This document shows positions 5,317-39,378 of a stretch of DNA of 40,038 bases, piece by piece (position 1 is the first letter of the stretch; the number at the start of each line of letters is the position of its first letter). The notes below the pieces were generated by a model, which was not told the origin of the DNA, did not search any database, and saw only the letters and a list, made by a program, of their open reading frames with translations. Location of the stretch: NCBI GenBank assembly GCA_021849595.1, contig JAJZSR010000006.1:1-40038 (forward strand). Direction: 5' to 3'. This DNA comes from Pseudomonadota bacterium (GTDB lineage Bacteria > Pseudomonadota > Gammaproteobacteria > Burkholderiales > Thiobacillaceae). Made by a program: the position numbers and the translations under genes.

Positions 5317-6619
5317 CGCGGCGGGTCAGGAACTGTTCGGCCATGGCCTTGTACACCGGCTGCCGGCAAACGCTGCGCGACACCGCGGTGGCCAGCAGGC
5401 TCACCAGCATCATGGGCACCAGCATGTCCTGGTTGTCGGTCATCTCCATGACGATGACGAACGCAGTAATGGGGGCCTGCACCACCCCGGCGAAATAGGC
5501 CGCCATCCCCAGCACGATAATGGCCCCCGGTGCCACGTCGGGCAGCAACATGGCGACATCGGCACCCAGCCCGGCTCCCACTGCGAGGGACGGCGAGAAT
5601 ATCCCCCCCGGTATGCCACTGACGAAAGACATCAGGGTGGCCAAAAGCTTGAGCAGCCCATAGTAGGGCGGGATGTCATGCTTGTTTTCCAACAGGGCGC
5701 GGGCCTCGTCGTAACCGGTGCCGAAGACGCTATGGGCCGAGACCATACCCAGCAGGGCCAGTGCCAGCCCGCAGATGCCGGCGAACACGACCGGGTGGCC
5801 GCGCAAGTAACGGCCGGCACGGCCGGGCAGACCGGCGCGGCCGTAGGCCAGCAGCAGGCGACTGAACAGCCCGCCCAGCGCCCCGCCGAGCAGCCCCATC
5901 AGCAGCACCGCCAGCCAACCCTGCCCGCCGGCCAAGGTGGCGTGGGTAACGCCAAAGTAAGTGTAGTTACCCTGCACATAAACCGCGGCCAGCCCGGCCA
6001 ATATCACGGCCGTGATGAGGGTGCCACTGGTTTTTTCCTCGAAGGAGCGCGCCATTTCCTCGATGGCGAAAACGATGCCGGCCAGCGGCGTGTTGAAGGC
6101 CGCCGCCACGCCGGCGGCACCGCCCGCGACGATCAGCGCGCGCTCCGGCAGGCGCCCCGGATAACGCAGCTTGCGATAAAGCGTGTGAAGGATGGCCGCG
6201 CCCACCTGCACGGTGGGCCCCTCGCGCCCCACGCTGGCGCCGCCCAACAAGCCCAGCCAAGTCAACAGCATCTTGCCCAGGGCAATCCTGAGCGACAGCA
6301 CACGGGCACGCTGGGCGCCATCAGCCATTTTCAGGGCGGCGATCGCCTGGGGGATACCACTGCCTTCGGCCCCCGGGAAATAGCGTCGCGTCAACGCCGC
6401 CACCAAGGCCAGGGTAATGGGCGTCGCAACCAGGGGCAGCCAGACGTAGCTGTCGACGCCGCGTTGGAAGGCGGCCATGGCGGCATTGGCGCCATAGGTG
6501 AACAGCGTCGCCACCAGGCCGATGGCGATGGCTCCCGCCCAGAAGGCCATCCGGCGCAGCCAAATGCGCAGCGACAGCCAGCGCAGGCGATGACGGCGAT
6601 TAAGGTGCGGCGCTGCCAT
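5273..6619 (-). CDS. ClC-family chloride channel / H+-Cl- exchanger
   Basis: The product is 448 aa, an integral membrane protein with about ten or more helices. All three chloride-filter motifs are present: GSGIP at 86-90, GREGP at 131-135 (gating Glu133) and GIPGGIFSP at 335-343; the filter Tyr is Tyr423 (PVYKAM). Glu187-Glu188 in FAIEEM sits where transporters carry the inner proton glutamate, which argues for an H+/Cl- exchanger. The ATG at 6619 (MAAPHLNRRH) is chosen; the upstream extension is encoded by a repetitive hairpin and is not protein-like. There is no CBS domain. The 3' end overlaps the gene at 4876-5316 tail to tail by 44 nt. Confidence 0.88.
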   Translation of the reverse strand: MAAPHLNRRHRLRWLSLRIWLRRMAFWAGAIAIGLVATLFTYGANAAMAAFQRGVDSYVWLPLVATPITLALVAALTRRYFPGAEGSGIPQAIAALKMADGAQRARVLSLRIALGKMLLTWLGLLGGASVGREGPTVQVGAAILHTLYRKLRYPGRLPERALIVAGGAAGVAAAFNTPLAGIVFAIEEMARSFEEKTSGTLITAVILAGLAAVYVQGNYTYFGVTHATLAGGQGWLAVLLMGLLGGALGGLFSRLLLAYGRAGLPGRAGRYLRGHPVVFAGICGLALALLGMVSAHSVFGTGYDEARALLENKHDIPPYYGLLKLLATLMSFVSGIPGGIFSPSLAVGAGLGADVAMLLPDVAPGAIIVLGMAAYFAGVVQAPITAFVIVMEMTDNQDMLVPMMLVSLLATAVSRSVCRQPVYKAMAEQFLTRRVTAPSVRDEPSSAR

Positions 6620-6651
6620 GATTAGCGTGAAACGACGCTCAGTGTTACCGC

Positions 6652-6688
6652 CTCCCCCTCGTTCTCTGGGAGAGGGCCGGGGTGAGGG
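6652..6688. repeat. REP-like GGGAGAGGG / GGGGTGAGGG repeat
   Basis: The segment CTCCCCCTCGTTCTCTGGG followed by AGAGGGCCGGGGTGAGGG resembles the short, widely dispersed proteobacterial repeat whose complement reads CCCTCACCCC-GGCCCTCTCCC. A short hairpin (CCCTC at 6656-6660 with GAGGG at 6672-6676) is possible. It fills the gap between pdxJ and the chloride channel gene, both on the minus strand, where it could act as a transcript-stabilising or attenuating hairpin. Confidence 0.45.
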
Positions 6689-6745
6689 AAACGGACAGGG
6701 CGGCAAGGGCGTTTCATGCTTTGGAGTGGCGTTTCGCCATGTCCG

Positions 6746-7477
6746 TTAGGCGCGCGCGGCCTCCCGCATCAGGCGCTTCATCTCGGCCACCGCCGCCTGC
6801 CAGCCGACGAACAAAGCATGGGCGACGATGGCATGGCCGATGTTGAGCTCGTGCATACCGGGCAGCGCGGCGATGGCGCCGACGTTATGATAAGTCAGGC
6901 CATGGCCGGCGTTGACCGTCAGCCCCAGGCCGCGCGCATAGGCCGCAGCATTCTTGATGCGCATGTACTCGCGCTCGGTTGCTTCGGGCGTGGCCGCATC
7001 GGCGTAATGACCCGTATGGATTTCCACCACGGGCGCACCGATTGCCGCAGCCGCTTCGATCTGCGCGAACTCTGCGTCGATGAACAGCGACACGCGCACG
7101 CCCGCGGCGCGCAAGCGCGCGCAGGCGGCACGCATCTTGTCCGCCTGAGCCACCACGTCCAGGCCGCCTTCGGTGGTCAACTCGCTGCGTTTCTCCGGCA
7201 CCAGGCAGACGTCCTGGGGCCGCACGCGCTCGGCGATGGCGAGCATCTCTTCGGTCGCGGCCATTTCCAGATTCATCTTGGTCTTGAGCACGCGGCGCAG
7301 GATGTCGACGTCTTCGTCCTGGATGTGGCGGCGGTCTTCGCGCAGATGCAGGGTGATGGAGTCGGCCCCCGCCGTCTCCGCCTGCAGGGCCGCTTCCACC
7401 GGGCTGGGGTAACGCGTCCTGCGCGCCTGGCGCAAGGTGGCGATGTGGTCGATGTTGACGCCCAGAAAAATGCTCAT
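6746..7477 (-). CDS. pdxJ: pyridoxine 5'-phosphate synthase
   Basis: The product is 243 aa, the expected length. PdxJ condenses 1-deoxyxylulose 5-phosphate with 3-amino-2-oxopropyl phosphate to make pyridoxine 5'-phosphate in the cytoplasm, the last ring-forming step of de novo vitamin B6 synthesis. Family landmarks are [17 protein letters not shown] at the N-terminus, [32 protein letters not shown] and [12 protein letters not shown]. Its ATG overlaps the recO stop (ATGA), so it is the last gene of the coupled lepA-lepB-DUF4845-rnc-era-recO-pdxJ run. The acpS gene that often follows pdxJ is absent here. Confidence 0.97.
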
Positions 7478-8190
7478 AATTCCGCGAGTTCCTGCAACAA
7501 CAGTCGAGTATAGAGGGCTTTGCCGCCCAGGTGATGCTGGATGAGCGCGCGCATGAGATGCTTGCCCTCGCCCAGCGTGGCGGGCGAGGCGAACTCCCCG
7601 GCCGCGAGGTCCAGCAAGGTGCGGCCGGGCACGGCGATGCCTGCGCCGTCGTCCGGCACCACGCCGTGTCCGGGCTGGTAGCGGTAGCGGGCGTCCGCGC
7701 TCACGGGCTCCCCGCTCACGGCCAGGCGGTCCAGCGTCGCGGCATAGCCGATTTCCTTGAGCAGGCCCAGTTCAAAGCGCCGCAGCAGCGGCTCCAGCCC
7801 GCCGGGCCCGGCCGCCAGCGATTGCAGCGTCTGGTTGTAAAGCGCATAGAGGCCCTCATGCGGATCGTCGCGGGCCAGAAGCTTGAGCACCAGTTCGTTG
7901 AGATAAAAGCCCGCGATGAGGGCGCGCCCGGACGGCGGCGCCAGCCCGCCCTGCCATTCGGCAGCGTGCAGGGTGCGCAACTCGCCCCGGCCGTACCACG
8001 ACAGGAGCAAGGGATGGAAAGGCTGGATCAGGCCGCGCAGGCCGGACAGCGGACGCCGCGCGCCGCGCGCCACCACCGCCACGCGGCCGTAGTCGCGCGT
8101 GAAGAGTTCCGCGACCAGGCTGGTTTCCTTATAAGCATAGCTGTGCAGCACGAAGCCCGGTTGGTGGTTGACTGGATGAGGCGTGGCCAT
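7474..8190 (-). CDS. recO: DNA repair protein RecO
   Basis: The product is 238 aa. RecO works with RecF and RecR to load RecA on SSB-coated single-stranded DNA. The N-terminal OB-fold is visible ([42 protein letters not shown]), followed by the helical domain with [23 protein letters not shown]. The zinc-finger cysteines present in some RecO proteins are missing, as in many proteobacteria. It sits between era and pdxJ, the standard betaproteobacterial position, and is coupled to pdxJ by ATGA. Confidence 0.95.
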
Positions 8191-8222
8191 CGATCTTCAC
8201 GGCGGGCGGCGCCGCCCGCCTC

Positions 8223-9110
8223 TCACTCCAGGCCGAGTTCCCGCAGCATGCGCCGGTCTTCCGCCCAGCCCCCTTTTACCTTGACCCATACCTCCAGATA
8301 AACCCGGGCGCCGAAGGTCTTTTCCATGTCCTGGCGCGCCTGGCTGGAAATGGCCTTGAGCTTTTCCCCGCCCTGGCCGATCACGATGGCCTTGTGGCTC
8401 TCCTTGTCCACCAGGATAGTGGCGTGGATACGCCGCAGACCGCCCTCGCTTTCGAACTTGTCGATCGCCACGGCCGTTCCATAGGGGATCTCCTCGCCGC
8501 ATAGGCGGAACAGCTTTTCGCGTATGAACTCGGCGGCCAGGCGGCGTTCGCTCTGGTCGGTCACTTCGTCTTCACCGTAAAGCGGCGGCCCTTCCGGCAG
8601 GCGCTGGGCGAGCACCCGGTAGAGTTCGGCCATCCCCGTTCCCTGCTGGGCGGACAGGGGCACCAGGGCGGCGGCCGGGAAGGCCGCCTGCATCTCCTGC
8701 AGGAAGGGCAGCAGCGAAGCCCGCTCCTTGATGCGGTCGAGCTTGTTCAGGGCCAGGATCAGCGGCTTGTTCTCAGGCAGCAGTTCGGCGACCTGGCGGT
8801 CCTCGCGTCCGTAGCGGCCCGCCTCGAGCACCAGGATGACGACATCGGTGTCCGCCAGGGCGGTCCGCACGCTGCGATTGAGGGCGGCGTTCAGACGTCC
8901 GCCGTGGCGGGTCTGGAAGCCCGGCGTGTCCACGAACACGGCCTGGAATTCCGCTTGCGTATGGATGCCCAGCACGCGATGGCGCGTGGTCTGCGGCTTG
9001 CGCGAAGTGATGCTGATCTTCTGCCCCACCAGGCGATTGAGCAGCGTGGACTTGCCCACGTTGGGACGCCCGATGATCGCCACCATGCCGGCGCGAAAAG
9101 GCTCGCTCAT
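8223..9110 (-). CDS. era: GTPase Era
   Basis: The product is 295 aa, an essential GTPase that binds the 3' end of 16S rRNA during 30S maturation. G1 GRPNVGKS is at residues 14-21, G3 DTPG at 61-64, and G4 NKLD at 122-125. The C-terminal KH domain has IGQGGEKLK at 244-252. The ATG at 9110 (MSEPFRAG) is chosen over a longer frame that reads into the rnc end; it overlaps the rnc stop as ATGA, so the two are translationally coupled. RNase III and Era act in the same rRNA maturation pathway. Confidence 0.97.
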   Translation of the reverse strand: MSEPFRAGMVAIIGRPNVGKSTLLNRLVGQKISITSRKPQTTRHRVLGIHTQAEFQAVFVDTPGFQTRHGGRLNAALNRSVRTALADTDVVILVLEAGRYGREDRQVAELLPENKPLILALNKLDRIKERASLLPFLQEMQAAFPAAALVPLSAQQGTGMAELYRVLAQRLPEGPPLYGEDEVTDQSERRLAAEFIREKLFRLCGEEIPYGTAVAIDKFESEGGLRRIHATILVDKESHKAIVIGQGGEKLKAISSQARQDMEKTFGARVYLEVWVKVKGGWAEDRRMLRELGLE

Positions 9111-9787
9111 GCACCCTCCAGCCAGGCCAGCATGGCCTGGGCGGCATCCTGCTCCGCGGCACGGCGGCTCTTGCCGCGCCCGCGGCTGGCATGGCGCCCA
9201 TCCTTGAGCCGGCACTCCACCACGAACTCCTGATCGTGCGCCTGGCCTTCGGTGGCCACGAGATGATATTCGGGCAAGGACTCGCGCCTTCCTTGCAGCC
9301 ATTCCTGCAAACTGGTCTTGGCATCCTTGCCGGAGGCTTGCGGGTCGATGGCCGCGATATGCGGCGCCATCAGGCGCGCCACCACGGCGCTGGCAGCCGC
9401 GAATCCGGCGTCCAGGAAAATCGCGCCGATGAGGGATTCCAAGGCGTCGGCCAGGATGGAAGGACGGCGGAAGCCGCCGCTTTTCAGTTCGCCTTCGCCC
9501 AGGCGCAGATGCTCGCCCAGCGCCAGGGACGCGGCGATATCGGCCAGGGTTTCCTGGCGCACCAAGCTGGCGCGCAAGCGCGACAAACTGCCCTCCGGCA
9601 CTTGCGGAAAGGCCTGGTAGAGTGCATGCGCCACGGCGCAGTTGAGCACCGAGTCGCCTAGGAATTCCAGACGCTCGTTGTGTGGGCTGCCATAGCTGCG
9701 GTGAGTAAGCGCCTGACGCAGCAGGGCGGGATCAGCGAAAACATGGCCCAGCGCACTCTGCAGTTGTGCCGTATTTGATTTAATCAC
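9107..9787 (-). CDS. rnc: ribonuclease III
   Basis: The product is 226 aa. It cleaves double-stranded RNA, including the rRNA precursor. The signature NERLEFLGDSVL is at residues 37-48, and the metal-binding acidic residues Glu38, Glu41, Asp45, Asp114 and Glu117 fall at the same numbers as in the E. coli enzyme. The double-stranded RNA-binding domain occupies about 150-224. The start is GTG at 9787-9785. It overlaps the end of the DUF4845 gene by 8 nt and the start of era by 4 nt. Confidence 0.97.
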   Translation of the reverse strand: MIKSNTAQLQSALGHVFADPALLRQALTHRSYGSPHNERLEFLGDSVLNCAVAHALYQAFPQVPEGSLSRLRASLVRQETLADIAASLALGEHLRLGEGELKSGGFRRPSILADALESLIGAIFLDAGFAAASAVVARLMAPHIAAIDPQASGKDAKTSLQEWLQGRRESLPEYHLVATEGQAHDQEFVVECRLKDGRHASRGRGKSRRAAEQDAAQAMLAWLEGA

Positions 9788-31982: not shown

Positions 31983-32426
31983 TCAGGGGGCGTGATCGGC
32001 GCCCTCGCCGCCGTCCTCATGCCCGCCGCTGCCACCCTTGCCTTTGCCGCCTTCGTGGCCCTCTTCTTCGCCGCCGGGGGCGTGAAACACATTCGACTCC
32101 AGACTCTTGCTGCCGCCGCCATGGGACGACGAGCCCTTGTGGCCCATGTCTGAGGGCTGGTGGCCACCCGTGGCGCCGCTTCTGCCCTTGGTACCCTTGC
32201 CGCCCTTGGCGCCTTCATGCCCGCCCCCAGTTTCGTGGCCACCCCCGGTTTCGTGACTGCCGCCCCCGCCGCAGCCGCCGCACTCGTCCTTCGCCTGGGC
32301 GCTGGCTAGCGGATGCAGTGGAAGCAGCCCGAACTGCCCGAGGGCAATGGCGCCGCCAAACAAGAGCGCGGCGAACAACACGCCGTGCTTGCACCCGCGC
32401 GGGGCGGAAACGACTGTGGGCTTCAT
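31983..32426 (-). CDS. exported Gly/His-rich low-complexity protein
   Basis: The product is 147 aa. A signal peptide (about 1-43, ending PLASA) is followed by a CGGC motif (Cys49, Cys52) and low-complexity sequence rich in Gly, His, Lys and Glu, including HETGGG repeats at about 58-72. Histidines recur to the C-terminus (GHEGG, GGHEDGG, DHAP). This could bind metals or act as a flexible surface polymer. The ATG at 32426 has a strong GGAAAGGAAG before it. It lies downstream of the 374-aa secreted protein gene, behind a terminator. I do not recognise a characterised homologue. Confidence 0.75.
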   Translation of the reverse strand: MKPTVVSAPRGCKHGVLFAALLFGGAIALGQFGLLPLHPLASAQAKDECGGCGGGGSHETGGGHETGGGHEGAKGGKGTKGRSGATGGHQPSDMGHKGSSSHGGGSKSLESNVFHAPGGEEEGHEGGKGKGGSGGHEDGGEGADHAP

Positions 32427-32439
32427 GGGACTTCCTTTC

Positions 32440-32453
32440 CTGCGCATGCGCAG
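32440..32453. promoter_or_regulatory. 14-bp perfect palindrome in the leader of the Gly/His-rich gene
   Basis: CTGCGCATGCGCAG is a perfect palindrome lying between the terminator T-tract and the ribosome binding site of the gene at 31983-32426. It could be an operator or a short RNA hairpin that affects initiation. No regulator can be named. Confidence 0.3.
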
Positions 32454-32457
32454 TTGA

Positions 32458-32488
32458 CAAAAAAACGGAGGCCGCAAAAAGGCCTCCG
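32458..32488 (-). terminator. intrinsic terminator after the 374-aa secreted protein gene
   Basis: On the minus strand CGGAGGCC, loop TTTTTGC, GGCCTCCG is followed by a T-rich tract (complement of 32458-32465). The 8-bp stem is perfect. It separates the 374-aa gene from the 147-aa gene, so the latter depends on read-through or its own promoter. Confidence 0.75.
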
Positions 32489-32516
32489 CACCTGATTCCG
32501 CACGTGGGAATACCGG

Positions 32517-33641
32517 TCACTGGACAAATTGCAGCAGAGGCGTGTCGTGGATGAACAAGATCACGGCCCGGGCATCATCCACGGCCTGCGCGAAACCCGC
32601 AGCATTGGTCGTGGCCGTGGGCGCGGTCTTGAACACGGCATCGGCCAGTGTGGTTTCCGTCCATGTGACCGTGTTGTCCGCGTTCAGCGTGCCGACCTTG
32701 ACTTTCTCGTCATAGGTAGCGGTGCGGTCGTAGGTGAAGCTGCTGTAGTCGTAATAGGTCTTGCCGTCGTATTGAATCGTTCCCGTAATGCCCAGGATGG
32801 GATTCAGATATTCGACCGTGTCGAGGTTCACGCTACCGTATTTATCGGACGCAGCGCCCAGGAAAGCGGCGGCATTGGTCAGATTCAGGGTGATAGAACC
32901 GCTGGACGTGGGCAGCGTCAGCGTGCCGCCATTCTTCAGGATGGCCTGATAAAGGGCCAGGTTCTCCAGAGGGGAGTCGATGGTGGCCGTGGTGCCGTCG
33001 GACTTGGTATAAAGAATCCGGCCCGCTTCATCGAATTCCACCTTGGTCGCATCGAGTATGGTCTTTTCAGCTTCCGCCAGTTGCTGATCGATCACCTTGG
33101 TGGACGCGCGGCTTACGCTCAGGCGGCTGAACTCCACGGTCTGCGGCACAGCGCCGGTGGGAACCTCGCCTTCGGGAGTCAGATAGATGAGGCTGCCGTC
33201 CGCGGCGATGAGAATTTCGTGGCCGTAATCATCCAGCACGGGCGTGCCGTCGGGGTTGCGCAGGATCACGTAGAGATCGCCGTAGAGATCGCCCTTCTTG
33301 GTGCCGGCGGTGCCTGGCTTGGTGCCGCCGCCGGCCTTGCCGCCCTTCACACCAGCCCATTCCGGCCGGTCGGAATCGCTTTCCTCGCCGGGCCCGCCCT
33401 GGCCCTTCATCATGACGTCGCTCTTACCCTTGCCGCCTTTCTCCTGGCCGTGGCCGCCGGTGGAGCCGTGCTGGCCTTTGCTTGCCCCGGCCTTGGTGCC
33501 GCCCTCGCCCTCGGCAGCGTAGGCCTTGGCCACCAAACCGATGCTCAGGTAGTGCGACACCATCGGCGCAGACAGCAAGGCAAAGACCGCTACGCTTCCG
33601 GACGCGGCAAGCTTCTTCAGATTAAACGTCGCGCTTTTCAT
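32517..33641 (-). CDS. exported protein with Gly-rich linker and conserved C-terminal domain of unknown function
   Basis: The product is 374 aa. A long signal peptide (cleavage about residue 43, AKAYA) is followed by a Gly/Lys/His-rich disordered segment (about 44-115). The folded part starts at GDLYGDLYVILRNPDGTPVLDDYGHEI and includes VEFSRLSVSRASTKVIDQQLAEAEKTILDA and TIDSPLENLALYQAIL. I have an unverified recollection of these motifs in uncharacterised secreted proteins of other bacteria. There is no enzyme motif and only one type of low-complexity linker. AAGGGA precedes the ATG. It follows the barrel gene by 190 nt on the same strand and ends at a terminator. Confidence 0.8.
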   Translation of the reverse strand: MKSATFNLKKLAASGSVAVFALLSAPMVSHYLSIGLVAKAYAAEGEGGTKAGASKGQHGSTGGHGQEKGGKGKSDVMMKGQGGPGEESDSDRPEWAGVKGGKAGGGTKPGTAGTKKGDLYGDLYVILRNPDGTPVLDDYGHEILIAADGSLIYLTPEGEVPTGAVPQTVEFSRLSVSRASTKVIDQQLAEAEKTILDATKVEFDEAGRILYTKSDGTTATIDSPLENLALYQAILKNGGTLTLPTSSGSITLNLTNAAAFLGAASDKYGSVNLDTVEYLNPILGITGTIQYDGKTYYDYSSFTYDRTATYDEKVKVGTLNADNTVTWTETTLADAVFKTAPTATTNAAGFAQAVDDARAVILFIHDTPLLQFVQ

Positions 33642-33831
33642 AGGATTTCCCTTCGTAGATTTGAGATTGCGTACTCGCTGGCAAGTCCGACAAAAAACTT
33701 AAACCAACATTAAGACATTACGCACCTGGAAGAAAAGCATCATTGACAAATCGCAATCAACGATACTTTTTTATGTTAGACAAGAACAGCAAAAAATCTC
33801 TTTTTTGGATCCCTTGATGCGACCTCAGAAG

Positions 33832-36451
33832 TCAGAAGCGATAAAGAACGCCCAAGCTAAACAGGCTTTCGACAGTATCCATGCCGACCATGTCCGGCTG
33901 CCCGGCGGCCGTAGTCAAATCAAGGGCCGGATATTTCGTGTAAGAATACTCGGCGCGCCAGAACACATCTCGCGTGGCCGGCAGTTCCACACCTACGCCG
34001 AACCGCCTGCCCCTTGAGCGATTGTTCTCATCATAGGGTGAGCTGTTTCCCTGTATGTAGATCGTGTGGAAGCTGGTGTCCTGCAGTCCGTAACTGGCGT
34101 AAAGCATGCCGCCGCCCGCCAGCACGTAGCCCGCCCGCAGTGACGCCCCGTAGCCGCCGTTCTTCCTTAAGCTATAAGTCCTACCCCCTCCGCTGGTGAC
34201 CCGCTCGTGCGCCCAAGCCGCATTGCTCGCCTCGGCCTCAAGCTCCAGACCTGCATACACCCGGCCCCAGGCGTGACCGTAGCCCGCGAACACCCCGGGA
34301 GTCACGCCAAACCCGCCATAACCGGCCAGGAGGTTAGTGGCGTCGTTACCGTGGTAAGCATCGAGAGAGGTGGTCAACGCTCCATGCCCGATCTCAACCC
34401 CGCCATAAAAGCCGGAATAATCAGGCACAGGCGGCGCCAGCCGAGATTTCCGGTCAGCATCGAAATGCCAGCCCAGCCCCAGGCGGAACAATCCTTCGCG
34501 GTTGCGGAAATCGTCCGCCCCCGTCTGATAGTTCATGACATAGCCGTCGTAGTTGGTGTAGGTGTAATCCAGGCGCACGAAGGCGTTGCCTGCGGCCCAA
34601 GCCTCGACGCCGAGGCCGTAGCGGCGGCCGTTCTGCGTGTTGTTCTGAGCAAAGCTCACACCGTCGTCGCGCGTGTAATCGGTATGAAAATCCGTGCGCA
34701 CCACGCCGGCACGACCATACAGCATGCCGCTGTCCAGCACGTAGCCAAGGCGAGCACTGAGCCCATAGCTGTCCCCGCTTTGCGCGCCGAACACCCGCCC
34801 GCCCGGGTAGTGGTTGTGGGTCCACCCAAGATTGCTGTTGTCTCCTTCCAATTCCAAACCCAGGTACCAGGGGTTGAACTCGACGCCATAACCGGCGAAT
34901 ACGCCGCCCACCGCGGCGCTGTCGCCAAAATCGGAAGTCAGCGTCCCATTCCCCGGGCGCGGGCTGAACAGCGTCGTGTTGAGTCCGCCGTAGCCCGCCT
35001 GCACGCCGCCATAGAATCCGCCGATGCCGGTAGGCGCGCGCAGCGCGCTGGTTAGCGCGCCCCCCTCGAAAGACTTCAATGGCGCGAACTGGCTGCCCAG
35101 CGTGAACATGACCTGGTTGCGCGTGTAGTTGCCATCGAGCACGTTGGATTCGCGGCGCAGAAAGCGGTAATCGGCGCCGACGTAGACATAGCGGCTGACG
35201 TCGTAGCGCAACCCGACCCCGGCATCGAGCAGCTTGTCGACGCGGTAGGCGCCATCGGTCAGGTCGTAGCCCTGGAAATCGCTGTGGATGTAGGCAGCGC
35301 GCACATTCAGCTTGAGGCGCGGCTGCAGCCAGTGCTCGATGCGCCCACCCACCGTCGTATCCAGCGAGCTGGACGAACCGGCCAAGGTCGTCTCCTCAAC
35401 CGCGCGGTCGACAAAGCCCGTGACCGCGGTCTGGGGATCCGCGAACCATTTGATCTCGCCGCCGAAGTAAGGCGCGCTCACGTCCTGCAGGCGCGCGTCG
35501 CTGTAGTTCTGCAGCAGATGCCCGACATAGGCCTCGCCGGTCAGGCGCTTGGCCAGGTTCACGCTGCCGCCGACGGCCACCCGATAGCCGTCCGAATCGC
35601 GGTGATAACCGTTGTCGTCGTAGTATTGGGCGTAGCGCCGCGTGTCCGTGGCCGCCTGCGCGAACAGGTCGTAACCAGGCACCAGAGTGTAGCTCGCCCG
35701 CCCGCCGAGGGCGGTGAGGGTGCGATCGCGGTCATTGTTGTTGATCGGCACGCCGCTGTCGGTGGTGCCGTTGTCGTAATTCAACTTTTCGTAAGTACCG
35801 CCCAGGCGCAAGGCCACACGGCCCAGGCGCCGGAAGCCGCCGACATAGCCGCGAGTTTCCGTGTACACCGTCGGATACTTGCTGTTGAGCACCGCATCCG
35901 CGGTGGCACGGTCTTCGTGGTTGCGGCTCACGCCTGCACCGGCATAGATATTGGCGCTCGGCGAGAAATCATAGCGCCCGTCGGCATTTGCCCAGTAGTC
36001 CGCAGTATCTTCGGTCGTATGCGTACGATAACGATCGATGTCGGCACCGGCGCTGAAGTTGAGCATGTGCTTGGACCATGCCGATTTTACCGACACCGCG
36101 GGAGAGATGACGGTCACCCAGTCTTGCACCGGATTGGTGGGCGTCGCGTAGATGTTGTCGTCGGTATAGACCCGAGAGGGAAATCTCCGGATAAACAACG
36201 AAAGAACCCCACTTGAGACCTTTTACCTCCGTCTCCGGGTGCGGCACCAGATAAGGCAGCGGCATAGTAGGCAACAGTTTCACGGCCGGTGCCTGCGGAA
36301 ACGGCTGCTGGCGCCTGGCCGGCCCAGTTTCGCCTCCTTGCTGGGTCTGCACCGGGGTAACGGAAGGTTGATCGGCGTACGCAGTGCCGAAAGTGGAGAG
36401 CGCTACGCCAAGCGCGAGCATGATTTTCTTCTTGGTGTGTTTCAGGATCAT
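33832..36451 (-). CDS. three-barrel outer membrane protein, apparent frameshift near the 5' end
   Basis: A signal peptide (MILKHTKKKIMLALGVALSTFGTAYA) and a Pro-rich linker lead to GLKWGSFVVYPEISLS in one frame. The protein continues as VYTDDNIYATPTNPVQDWVTVISPAVSV in another, so one net base is extra (or two missing) at about 36171-36175. Repaired, it is about 872 aa. A large barrel comes first (BBP2-type, residues 10-372 of the second frame). Two related small barrels follow, from GGFYGGVQAGYGG (genomic about 35025-34459) and SGFYGGVEIGHG (about 34419-33835). The C-terminal residue is Phe (LGVLYRF), the usual outer-membrane assembly signal. Without repair only a 174-aa fragment, or a leaderless 788-aa protein from a TTG, could be made. 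Confidence 0.75.
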
Positions 36452-36508
36452 CCCCTGGTTGTTATGTCTTGATGAAGGCGCGCCGGGAAGCACCGAACGA
36501 ATTTTTAA

Positions 36509-36550
36509 ATCCTAAAATAAACGTATAGTTGGATTATTGATAATTCTCAA
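36509..36550 (-). promoter_or_regulatory. FNR-type box and class II promoter for the barrel gene
   Basis: TTGAT-AATT-CTCAA at 36537-36550 matches the FNR consensus TTGAT-N4-ATCAA at 9 of 10 positions. On the minus strand TAGGAT (complement of 36509-36514) is centred 32 nt from the centre of the box, the spacing of a class II activated promoter (box at -41.5). A Fur reading of the same bases (TATTGAT-A-ATTCTCA) matches 10 of 14 and cannot be excluded. The box also lies 63 nt before the regulator gene on the plus strand, where no good -10 is seen. Confidence 0.55.
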
Positions 36551-36613
36551 TTTATTAAATTATTAAACCCAACTTAGTCCTCTGCTCGATGCTTTGCCTA
36601 GCTTCAACAAGCC

Positions 36614-37321
36614 ATGCCTAACAGAGCAAAATGCAACGACATCACTTGGCAGGGCCATGCCGACTGCAGGCATTGCAGCGTTCGTCACCTGGTGCTGTTC
36701 GTCAATCTGGCCGACGCCGACCTCGATCGTACCCTCGCACCCATCGATGAACTGACCTATGCGCCGCAAACCCCCCTGTACCGCGCGGGCGAGCGTGGAG
36801 CGCACGCCTACACGGTACGCAGCGGGCTGTTGAAGCTTGTCCAATACCTACCCAACGGCACGCAGCGCATTGTTCGCCTGCTGCGCCCGGGCGACGTGGC
36901 CGGGCTGGAGATTCTGGTTCGCGGCGCCTACCACCACAGTGCCGTATGCATCGAGGCCACCGCCGTGTGCCGTATTCCCATCGCAGTGCTGAAAGACCTC
37001 GACGCCAGAAAGCCGGCCCTGCACCGCGAGTTGATGGCACGCTGGCAGCGCAGCCTGGATCAGGCGGACAACGTCATCACCCTCTTTTCCACCGGCAATT
37101 CGCAGGCCCGCGTCGCCCGCCTGCTGCTCCACCTGCGCCACCTGCCCGGAGAGGCCGCTTGCAACCTGCTGAGCCGCGAGGACATGAGCGCGCTGCTCGG
37201 CATCACGGTGGAAACCGCAAGCCGCATCGTGGCGGACTTCAAGCGCAGAAATCTGATCAGAACCGACAACGGGCAATGCGAATGCGACACCCCCGGCCTG
37301 CAGGCCCTCGCGCAGGACTGA
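36614..37321 (+). CDS. CRP/FNR-family transcriptional regulator
   Basis: The product is 235 aa: a cyclic-nucleotide-binding-like sensor domain (about 25-145), dimerisation helix and C-terminal helix-turn-helix. The recognition helix is LLGITVETASRIVADF, with Glu200, Ser203 and Arg204 at the positions that give FNR its TTGAT specificity. Cysteines 7, 18, 21 and 119 resemble the FNR cluster set: CRHCSV aligns with Cys20-x2-Cys23 and AVCRIP with the Cys122 region. The position of FNR Cys29 is Val27. It may hold an altered Fe-S cluster, with Cys7 as a possible substitute, or may sense something else. It is divergent from the barrel gene. Confidence 0.9.
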   Translation: MPNRAKCNDITWQGHADCRHCSVRHLVLFVNLADADLDRTLAPIDELTYAPQTPLYRAGERGAHAYTVRSGLLKLVQYLPNGTQRIVRLLRPGDVAGLEILVRGAYHHSAVCIEATAVCRIPIAVLKDLDARKPALHRELMARWQRSLDQADNVITLFSTGNSQARVARLLLHLRHLPGEAACNLLSREDMSALLGITVETASRIVADFKRRNLIRTDNGQCECDTPGLQALAQD

Positions 37322-37439: not shown

Positions 37440-38231
37440 TTATCTCGTGCACTGGTGCTGCATGTTGCGCGCCAGCACCAGCAGAAAGCGCAGGGTTTCC
37501 TGGTTCTCCTGCGTGCGCATGAGGCTCCACAGTCCGCCGATGCCGCCCGTCGCGGGCGGGCCCGCCTTGGCTTCGGCGCCGGATTTTTCCAGGCAGGTCA
37601 AAAGGCCTTCCACCATGTCGAGCTTGTTGACCAGCGCGGGCAGGGTTTCCGCCAGCTTCTCCAGCGTGCCGGCGTTGTCCAGGCGTTCCAGCATGCTGAT
37701 GACCCGGTCGCCGCTGCCGCGCTGCAGGCGGTCGAGCAGCGAGAGCCCTCCGCCCACGGCGTCGGCCAGCCGGCTCACCATGTCGTCGGTCAGCGCGTCC
37801 TGCGCCGAGCCCACCAGCCGCGCCATGTCGGCCAGGCGATCCAGGTCGCCGGTGTGCACCAGCTTGGCGATCACCGGAATGGCCTTGGCCAGTTGGGCGC
37901 GGTTGACCTGATCGAGCAGGTCGATGCCGCCCCCCAGGGTTTCCGCCAGCCGGCTCACCATGTCGTCGGTGAGCGCGTCCTGGGCGGAGCCGTACACGCG
38001 CGCCAGTTGCGCCAGGCGCTCCAGGTCGCCGTTGTTCGCCATCTCGGCGAGATAGGGCAGCGCCTTGGCGACGCCGGACCGATTGACCCGGTCGAGCAGG
38101 TCCATGCCGTCCGCAGCCGTAGCCGCCAGCCGGCTCACCATGTCATCGGTGAGCGCGTCCTTGGCCGCCTGGATCAGCCGCGCGGCCTCCTCCGCATCCG
38201 TGGGCGAGGTAGTGTCGAGTTGGGCGTTCAT
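37440..38231 (-). CDS. DUF1641 protein with three 60-residue repeats
   Basis: The product is 263 aa, predicted helical and soluble. Three consecutive 60-residue units start with DALTDDMVSRLA at residues 25, 85 and 145, each continuing GG(I/L)DLLD-x-(V/L)-NR and GDL(E/D)RLA-x-(L/M)AR. The C-terminus GGLWSLMRTQENQETLRFLLVLARN is the DUF1641 hallmark. DUF1641 proteins are often encoded next to SQR-like flavoproteins; their biochemical role is unknown. GGAGGG precedes the ATG, and the SQR-like gene ends 10 nt upstream. It probably forms a complex with that flavoprotein (inference). Confidence 0.85.
   Translation of the reverse strand: MNAQLDTTSPTDAEEAARLIQAAKDALTDDMVSRLAATAADGMDLLDRVNRSGVAKALPYLAEMANNGDLERLAQLARVYGSAQDALTDDMVSRLAETLGGGIDLLDQVNRAQLAKAIPVIAKLVHTGDLDRLADMARLVGSAQDALTDDMVSRLADAVGGGLSLLDRLQRGSGDRVISMLERLDNAGTLEKLAETLPALVNKLDMVEGLLTCLEKSGAEAKAGPPATGGIGGLWSLMRTQENQETLRFLLVLARNMQHQCTR
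37620..38159 (-). repeat. three 180-bp in-frame coding repeats
   Basis: The block CAGCCGGCTCACCATGTCGT (plus strand) recurs at 37767, 37947 and 38127 (plus or minus 1), exactly 180 bp apart. The 3' part of each unit diverges more, but the DALTDDMVSRLA-coding segment is almost identical. These are internal repeats of the DUF1641 gene, not a CRISPR array. Confidence 0.85.
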
Positions 38232-38241
38232 GATGCCCTCC

Positions 38242-39378
38242 TTACAGCAGGCCGCGGGCCGAGGTCCAGTAGAGCTTGTTGTAAGCCGTCTTGAACCAGT
38301 GCACCGCGCGCGTCGGCGGTTGCGGGCTGGGCGGCGTGGTGTAGTTGAACATGGCATAGGTCGCCCGTTCCTTGCCCGCCTGGATGAAGCAGAACACCTT
38401 GCCGTCGTAATCGCGCACCGGCGCGCCCATCTTCACCACGGCGGCCAGGTTCTCGGCGATGACCTCGGCCTCGAAGTGCGCCGTGGAGCCGGCCTTGGAA
38501 ATCGGCAGGTTGGTGGTGTCGCCCACCACCAGGACATTCTTGCCGTGCTCGCCTTCCATGTGCAAGGTGGCGCGGTTGGTGGGCACCCAGCCGTTCTGGA
38601 AGCCGGCCTTCTCCAGCACTTCCATGCCCTTGTGCGCGGGGATGGCGATGAGCAGGTCGTACTTGGTCTCGCTGCCTTCCTCGCTCTTCAGCACCTTGTT
38701 GGCGCCGTCCACTTCCTTCATGTTGAACAGCGTCTCATAAGTGATGCCCATGCGGTCGAACTCGGGCGCCGCCCACTTGGCGACGTTCTCCAGGCTGTGC
38801 ACGCGGCCGATGGGATAGGTGTAATGGAGCTGCACCTTGTCGCGGATGCCGCGATCCTTGAAGTAATCGTTGAGCATGAAGGTGATTTCCAGCGGCGCCA
38901 TGGGGCACTTGTGCGGCACACCCACGGTGATGACCACTCGCCCGCCCTCGAAATTGCGCAGCGCCTTGAACATTTTCACCGCGGTTTCTTCCGTGTAGAA
39001 GGTCTCGGCGTTTTCCGCCAGGCCCGGGATGCTCGCCATCATGGGGCGCGAACCCGTGGCGATCACCAGCACGTCGTAGTCGTAGCTCTTGCCGCTTTGC
39101 GCGTTCACCTGGTTCTTGGCAAAGTGGAATTCGGTCACCGGATCGACGTGGAACTCGATGCCCGGCTCCAGCAGGCTGGCCTGGTCACGGTAGAGCTCAT
39201 CGGGTGTCATGCGCCCAACTGCCACATATAGCAAGCCGGGCTGGTACATGTGCCGGTCGGACGCCGACAGCATGATGATGCGCGCCTTGCCGGATTTGAG
39301 TTCGCCGTGCAGCCGGCGCGCCAAGTTGTTGGCCAGGATGGTGCCGCCCATGCCGCCGCCTACGATCAAAATCTTCAT
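38242..39378 (-). CDS. SQR-like FAD-dependent oxidoreductase
   Basis: The product is 378 aa of the sulfide:quinone oxidoreductase / flavocytochrome c flavoprotein family. The FAD dinucleotide-binding loop is VGGGMGG at 6-12, with VIATGSRP at 105-112 and VVGDTTNLPISKAGSTAHFEA at 284-304. Two candidate redox cysteines are Cys158 (PHKCPMAPLE) and Cys330 (KVFCFIQAG); the third cysteine of type I SQR is absent. A C-terminal amphipathic segment (residues 345-378, rich in aromatic residues) could associate with the membrane. GAGGAG precedes the ATG. It would oxidise sulfide or a persulfide to polysulfur and reduce quinone; the substrate is inferred from neighbours. Confidence 0.88.
   Translation of the reverse strand: MKILIVGGGMGGTILANNLARRLHGELKSGKARIIMLSASDRHMYQPGLLYVAVGRMTPDELYRDQASLLEPGIEFHVDPVTEFHFAKNQVNAQSGKSYDYDVLVIATGSRPMMASIPGLAENAETFYTEETAVKMFKALRNFEGGRVVITVGVPHKCPMAPLEITFMLNDYFKDRGIRDKVQLHYTYPIGRVHSLENVAKWAAPEFDRMGITYETLFNMKEVDGANKVLKSEEGSETKYDLLIAIPAHKGMEVLEKAGFQNGWVPTNRATLHMEGEHGKNVLVVGDTTNLPISKAGSTAHFEAEVIAENLAAVVKMGAPVRDYDGKVFCFIQAGKERATYAMFNYTTPPSPQPPTRAVHWFKTAYNKLYWTSARGLL

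Follow-up and report, generated by a model that had tools for sequence, protein, structure and literature searches.

We analysed a 40,038-nt stretch of a Thiobacillaceae genome (GCA_021849595.1, contig JAJZSR010000006.1; this whole stretch is the window, and its own genome is G000). As judged from the sequences, four genes at positions 31983-37321 form a real co-inherited unit, encoding a regulator, an outer-membrane triple barrel and two exported proteins, P0002 and P0001. The explanation that we favour, with somewhat less than even confidence, is a self-contained envelope cassette switched by oxygen or redox state, in which the barrel and its matched Sec-exported partner P0002 would be induced at low oxygen and give rise to a surface layer. 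The support covers co-inheritance, gene order, candidate regulator boxes, the predicted three-barrel fold and the coupled architecture of barrel and P0002; from these we infer iron-sulfur (Fe-S) sensing, activation, physical pairing, surface location and a role as coat or in attachment.

An earlier reading of the same DNA from its letters alone (the sequence-only reading) had described these four genes, three of them on one strand, and the open reading frames (ORFs) and Pfam matches agree with it: the regulator gene lies on the plus strand, and the genes of the barrel, P0002 and P0001 lie on the minus strand. The features are as follows.

31983-32426, minus strand: P0001, 147-aa Gly/His-rich exported protein (ORF)
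32517-33641, minus strand: P0002, 374-aa exported protein (ORF)
33743-33756, minus strand: FNR-type box ahead of P0002, TTGCGATTTGTCAA on the minus strand, 7/10 to TTGATnnnnATCAA, 22 nt before TAATGT
33832-36451, minus strand: outer-membrane triple barrel gene, frame broken near 36163-36164 in the assembly
33838-35019, minus strand: two predicted 8-stranded barrels, OMP_b-brl, about 35019-34465 and about 34413-33838 (Pfam, AlphaFold)
35086-36165, minus strand: BBP2_2 domain with 16 predicted strands (Pfam E 3.1e-90, AlphaFold)
36537-36550, unstranded: FNR-type box common to the barrel and the divergent regulator, TTGATAATTCTCAA, 9/10
36614-37321, plus strand: CRP/FNR-family regulator (Pfam cNMP_binding and HTH_Crp_2)

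Co-inheritance and gene order within the family

P0002 is present in 22 of the 117 genomes of the family sample, and a barrel profile (E≤1e-30) finds the identical 22 with no discordant genome, so that the co-occurrence proposed in the sequence-only reading is borne out, together with a conserved gene order. With relatives and synteny seen in tens of genomes, the arrangement exceeds chance. The profile was built from some of the same loci, which makes the positives, although not the 95 negatives, partly a matter of construction. As the positives comprise two genomes of genus g1, 18 of g7 and two of g6, the 22 do not count as independent events. Regulator orthologues (E≤1e-50) occur in 23 genomes, namely 20 of the 22 cassette carriers and 3 of the 95 others (G087, G105 and G116). 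In one of the two carriers without it (G102) the contig ends in the barrel, and in the other (G140) no regulator is found in the sequence upstream of the barrel.

We fetched 21 family loci (the window and L036-L055). Of these, 18 have the regulator next to the barrel, and in the other three (L039, L045 and L046) the contig ends within the barrel. P0001 follows P0002 in 17/21 loci at E≤1e-8, and a matching small ORF stands at that place in L041 and L048; the contig of L039 ends just there, and G017 has none. The order regulator-barrel-P0002-P0001 is kept on one strand in g7, while g1, which comprises the window and the sister genome G002, has a divergent regulator. Protein identities between the window and G002 are 89% for P0002, 85% for the barrel, 80% for the regulator and 60% for P0001.

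The three regulator orthologues without a cassette lie at L191 (G105), L190 (G087) and L192 (G116). Because a rubrerythrin-like ORF (by eye) lies near the G105 gene, as in cassette loci, a loss of the cassette in G105 is suggested. In G114 (L169/L194) the cassette regulator has an in-frame stop and is perhaps a decaying copy.

Matched long and short forms across the phylum

P0002 was found in 15 of 399 genomes of the order sample (12 outside the family, one of those, G498, by a very weak match), in 7 of 369 of the class sample and in 8 of 349 of the phylum sample, the last two counts including the window's genome and the last also four weak matches; a search of plasmids gave no match. With weak matches left out, 20 genomes outside the family carry a clear P0002, and 16 of these have a barrel-profile match beside it. 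In G629 a single barrel lies on another contig than P0002.

Short relatives of P0002 are without two stretches, near model positions 112-180 and 297-352. We scored P0002 as long or short and the barrel as triple or single per genus by profile coverage. Long P0002 goes with a triple barrel in nine genera (g1, g7, g6-G140, g45, g46, g100, g323, g253 and g512) and with a single barrel in none, and short P0002 goes with a single barrel in six (g6-G017, g49, g95, g133, g108 and g367). The association gives a Fisher p of 0.0009, or 0.0037 with G629 entered as long/single, values that are only a guide since the genera are related. The table leaves out g573 and g558 (no barrel found), the weak matches and L011 (long/triple, no genus). 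The simplest reading of these sequences is a joint evolution, as partners, of the additional P0002 segments and the two additional barrels.

Two variants of the P0002 gene were also seen. Three g323 genomes (L150, L151 and L152) carry P0002 genes as a tandem pair downstream of one triple barrel, which is split over two ORFs in L152 (G660). In L155 (G629), two ORFs at 7176-9323 encode an N-terminus that by eye resembles that of a lipoprotein, followed by repeated P0002-like domains.

FNR-type boxes and the regulator

Boxes of the form TTGAn-N4-nTCAA were scored out of 10 in 17 g1 and g7 loci. A box of at least 8/10 lies upstream of the barrel in 16/17 loci (L047 has none) and upstream of P0002 in 15/17, the window scoring 7/10 there and L037 being degenerate. 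Relative to the start codon, they lie at -111 to -153 for the barrel in 12 of the 14 box-bearing g7 loci and at -116 to -133 for P0002 in 14 of 15 g7 loci. Among background 250-bp tiles of the same loci, 64/805 reach at least 8/10 and 4/805 at least 9/10; when single regions are shuffled by letter, the sites ahead of the barrel and P0002 that reach 8/10 or more have p values between 0 and about 0.16. The loci are related, and hence the box counts are not independent. These candidate sites resemble the FNR site TTGAT-N4-ATCAA at target promoters, many being off by one or two bases. Because they precede both the barrel and P0002, control of the two genes looks local, and the cassette genes are very probably co-regulated in the window's family, which agrees at the sequence level with the co-regulation that the sequence-only reading had proposed. 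No box stands ahead of P0001 in any of the 17 loci, which suggests that P0001 may share an operon with P0002.

No block upstream of P0002 is better conserved than its box, and a hexamer starting with TA (mostly TAGTCT) begins 22 nt after it in 19/19 box-bearing loci, which would centre the box near -41.5. The barrel promoter of the window likewise has TAGGAT at 22 nt from its box. A 4-bp insertion suspected in the P0002 box of the window was ruled out, as its length after alignment is the same as in G002. Beyond g1 and g7, regulator and boxes occur together in G017 and G205, boxes occur with a regulator remnant in G261, and a regulator without a strong box occurs in G282; a box of at least 9/10 is found in 0/6 scanned loci lacking the regulator.

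The regulator belongs to the CRP/FNR superfamily by both of its domains, which exceed the Pfam cut-offs (cNMP_binding 54.6 vs 27.5 bits, HTH_Crp_2 47.3 vs 27 bits). Cys 7, 18, 21 and 119 are invariant in 18/18 aligned sequences and probably hold an Fe-S cluster, and the recognition helix keeps ExxSR, as does that of FNR. The cluster ligands of FNR are C-x2-C-x5-C plus one distant Cys; C18 and C21 match the first two of these, and C7 may stand in for the missing third. The regulator thus shares with the FNR/FixK branch the cNMP-type sensor domain, the HTH domain, ExxSR, FNR-type boxes and four conserved Cys, but differs in the spacing of the Cys, in having no canonical third Cys and in that its boxes are known at adjacent genes.

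The barrel protein

The barrel protein has a BBP2_2 domain (PF10082; E 3.1e-90; 303 vs 23.7 bits cut-off) and OMP_b-brl matches in four stretches. The AlphaFold model of the main barrel frame (18 sequences; mean pLDDT 79.5, pTM 0.64) has 16+8+8 strands, counts that are taken from the secondary-structure line of the model and are a prediction. Strand prediction and Pfam matches together describe a putative multi-barrel outer-membrane protein, with more than one presumably closed barrel per chain. The triple barrel of the sequence-only reading stands as a predicted fold, whereas the gene is not one open frame in the window: the signal-peptide part (36152-36451; signal peptides were judged by eye throughout) is read in another frame than the barrel part, and relative to G002 the frame is broken by a single additional base near 36163-36164. 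This copy may be a pseudogene or the result of an assembly error, the two being indistinguishable here. The G002 gene is also interrupted, by a run of N (a scaffold gap) beside a duplicated stretch, and this break is an assembly artefact. A full-length open frame is present in 15/17 fetched g7 loci, L039 and L045 being cut by contig ends or broken.

The clear BBP2_2 first domain is shared with BBP2_2 barrels including EpsL, from which the cassette barrel differs by two added 8-strand barrels, its own exported partner and, in the window's family, its own regulator. Several barrels per chain are also described for GfcD and YjbH (PMC9603273); the cassette barrel differs from these in its 16+8+8 arrangement and in its pairing with the P0002 family. 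Identification as an MtrB/PioB porin of extracellular electron transfer was rejected, since TIGR03509 is absent from G000 at E≤0.001 and from the NCBIfam matches of the barrel.

The exported proteins P0002 and P0001

P0002 consists of a signal peptide, a low-confidence Gly/Lys-rich stretch (about 43-120), a long-form insert (about 115-168), a conserved core (about 170-285) and a long-form C-terminal part. No Pfam match exceeds the cut-off, NCBIfam gives no match, and searching PDB sequences with the family profile yields nothing at E≤1; on this sequence evidence, P0002 is a member of an unnamed protein family. The AlphaFold model (23 sequences; mean pLDDT 57.8, pTM 0.56) has very low confidence to about residue 135, is confident at about 180-265 and middling to 366, and part of the protein is predicted as a compact alpha/beta fold. 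Several candidate identities were set aside: DUF2259 and aRib (Pfam matches below the cut-off), RHS/YD-repeat proteins (weak matches, E 8.3e-5 and 0.0073, in just 1/15 members) and fold relatives, none of which is credible in Foldseek (best E 0.034 in the PDB, to designed propellers, and 0.024 among viral models) or outstanding in VIA-align (best Z 3.8 across 67 residues). By eye, the long-form insert nevertheless looks YD-repeat-like.

Mature P0001 is about 37% Gly and about 10% His, with the conserved motif HKGxSxH...GGSK...FH, and has nothing above the Pfam cut-off and no NCBIfam match. The CGGC on which the sequence-only reading had remarked is present at residues 51-54 in the window and is not conserved: G002 has CSSC, the 10 other relatives aligned lack CGGC, and by Cys content G002 has two, L046 one and 9/12 sequences none.

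Proposed mechanism and observations against it

In the explanation that we favour, an FNR-type dimer, probably with an Fe-S cluster on its four conserved Cys, would bind the TTGAn-N4-nTCAA boxes before the barrel and P0002 genes and turn both on at low oxygen. The barrel would insert into the outer membrane, Sec would export P0002 and the small His/Gly-rich P0001, and P0002 would dock on the barrel or pass through it. P0002 and P0001 could then form a layer that is exposed on the surface or lies outside the cell. Such display is plausible, and a role in matrix, adhesion or coat may go with it.

Several observations weigh against this explanation. The regulator scores below the NCBIfam FNR cut-off (79.2 vs 228 bits), and FNR's canonical third Cys (C-x2-C-x5-C) is missing, the spacing being C7-x10-C18-x2-C21, then C119; in the more distant divergent regulator beside the G282 cassette, the first of the four Cys is missing as well. 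The promoter geometry is also imperfect, as the mean TATAAT match before P0002 is 3.16 at 22 nt against 3.53 at 27 nt and is slightly higher at 20 too, and the hexamer conserved ahead of g7 barrels (TAGAAT/TAAAAT) stands about 28 nt away from the box, a poorer fit to -41.5. Among the 20 outside-family genomes, the regulator is in the fetched locus in two (G205 and G282) and a remnant is in G261, several contigs ending at the barrel, and in two f38 loci (L120 and L121) a sigma-70-type gene stands upstream of a single barrel, at the regulator's place in the family. P0002 and the triple barrel lie on different contigs in G194, no barrel is found at E≤1e-10 in G1150 and G1100, which have a clear short P0002, and one genus (g58) breaks the matching of forms with a short P0002 and a triple barrel. 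The redox-controlled envelope system of the sequence-only reading is well supported as a unit within the family by co-occurrence, gene order and shared boxes; its regulator is seldom in the locus elsewhere.

We consider it possible, more tentatively, that the cassette represents a scattered, undescribed outer-membrane export or display system of the phylum, composed of a matched BBP2_2 barrel and a new Sec-exported Gly-rich family, in which extra barrels would go with extra segments like lock and key and a dedicated, unusually liganded FNR-type switch would serve the window's family and at least two others. A literature search, made without isolates' locus tags, found no description of the cassette among the papers listed. 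An exported family of unknown function gains a constant membrane partner, and here also a regulator and mapped candidate operators, and its role therefore becomes testable. The way in which partner length goes with barrel number offers a natural experiment on the purpose of extra barrels per chain, and if surface display at low oxygen holds true, chemolithotrophs would turn out to have a new coat or attachment system in this cassette.

Alternative explanations

The barrel could instead be a solute porin or receptor, with 16 strands and two lateral 8-strand domains, and P0002 a periplasmic partner or plug, with nothing displayed. BBP2_2 is named a porin family, and the partly compact alpha/beta fold predicted for P0002 would suit such a partner. 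In Foldseek comparisons with the PDB the barrel matches generic barrels, best an Mtr porin and TonB-type transporters, albeit with low TM-scores (0.12-0.36 among the 50 matches listed), and these matches carry no functional information. For a periplasmic binding partner, however, so long a Gly-rich stretch and a companion rich in His and Gly are unusual, and nearby transporter genes are not constant but vary by genus (RND and MFS in g7, a cation ATPase in f34, permeases in the window). We regard this explanation as unlikely.

A device for polysaccharide export or anchoring, in which the barrel would be an EpsL/Wzp/GfcD-like glycan porin and P0002 would bind glycan, is less probable still. NCBIfam gives the barrel sub-cut-off matches alone, including EpsL and a PEP-CTERM outer-membrane family, and the EpsL (XrtB/PEP-CTERM) identity was rejected because the score is far from its cut-off (TIGR03014, 41.5 vs 275 bits). 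The double barrels GfcD and YjbH belong to polysaccharide secretion loci (PMC9603273), the G261 cassette stands between a phosphomannomutase-type gene before it and an ABC-2-type transporter gene after it, and GGDEF/EAL (f50) or HD-domain signalling genes adjoin two loci. However, no Wzx/Wzy or OPX family was found among the scanned subset of neighbours, and the sole Glycos_transf_3 match has a glutamine amidotransferase as its neighbour, the two resembling a pair for tryptophan synthesis.

We think it improbable to a greater degree that the barrel exports P0001 and P0002 as fibres of a functional-amyloid-like system, as in Fap or curli. Fap export uses the FapF barrel, and the cassette likewise encodes a dedicated barrel together with Gly-rich, Cys-poor exported proteins; a fused TolC-like/BBP2_2 ORF of G742, beside TolC-like and RTX genes, also hints at export. 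In contrast to Fap, P0002 has a predicted folded part, no sequence similarity was found, the Pfam and NCBIfam scans gave no Fap or curli family match, and no repeat array was seen in the window proteins by eye, no formal repeat search having been made.

The metal- or sulfur-binding layer tied to the neighbouring sulfur genes, which the sequence-only reading had proposed, is very improbable: although P0001 is His-rich and rhodanese genes lie near 15/17 g7 loci, CGGC is not conserved, Cys is absent from P0002 in 23/23 aligned sequences, and SQR-like and DUF1641 genes adjoin the cassette in 2/2 g1 loci and 0/17 fetched g7 loci (some on short contigs), so that no metal or sulfur function is supported for the cassette.

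Gene neighbourhood and host genomes

Across the loci, the only constant part is the cassette itself. In g7, rubredoxin reductase (12/17) and rubrerythrin (11/17) genes also lie nearby, and multihaem cytochromes and a sulfur transporter are encoded near the G017 cassette. In the window, positions 37440-39378 beside the cassette encode a DUF1641-like protein (sub-cut-off) and an SQR/FCSD-like flavoprotein, and in L153 (G742), positions 6573-9176 join a TolC-like (outer-membrane efflux) domain and BBP2_2 in one ORF. Similarity to MtoD was found in one g6 genome, and two RuBisCO large-subunit genes are present in 4/6 genomes tested, one G090 gene being closest to form I entries; these genes fit chemolithoautotrophic betaproteobacteria of the Thiobacillaceae, Gallionellaceae or Sulfuricellaceae. 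On G000:C59 the two RuBisCO large-subunit genes lie about 8 kb apart, one being closest to form II entries and the other starting like the G090 form I gene.

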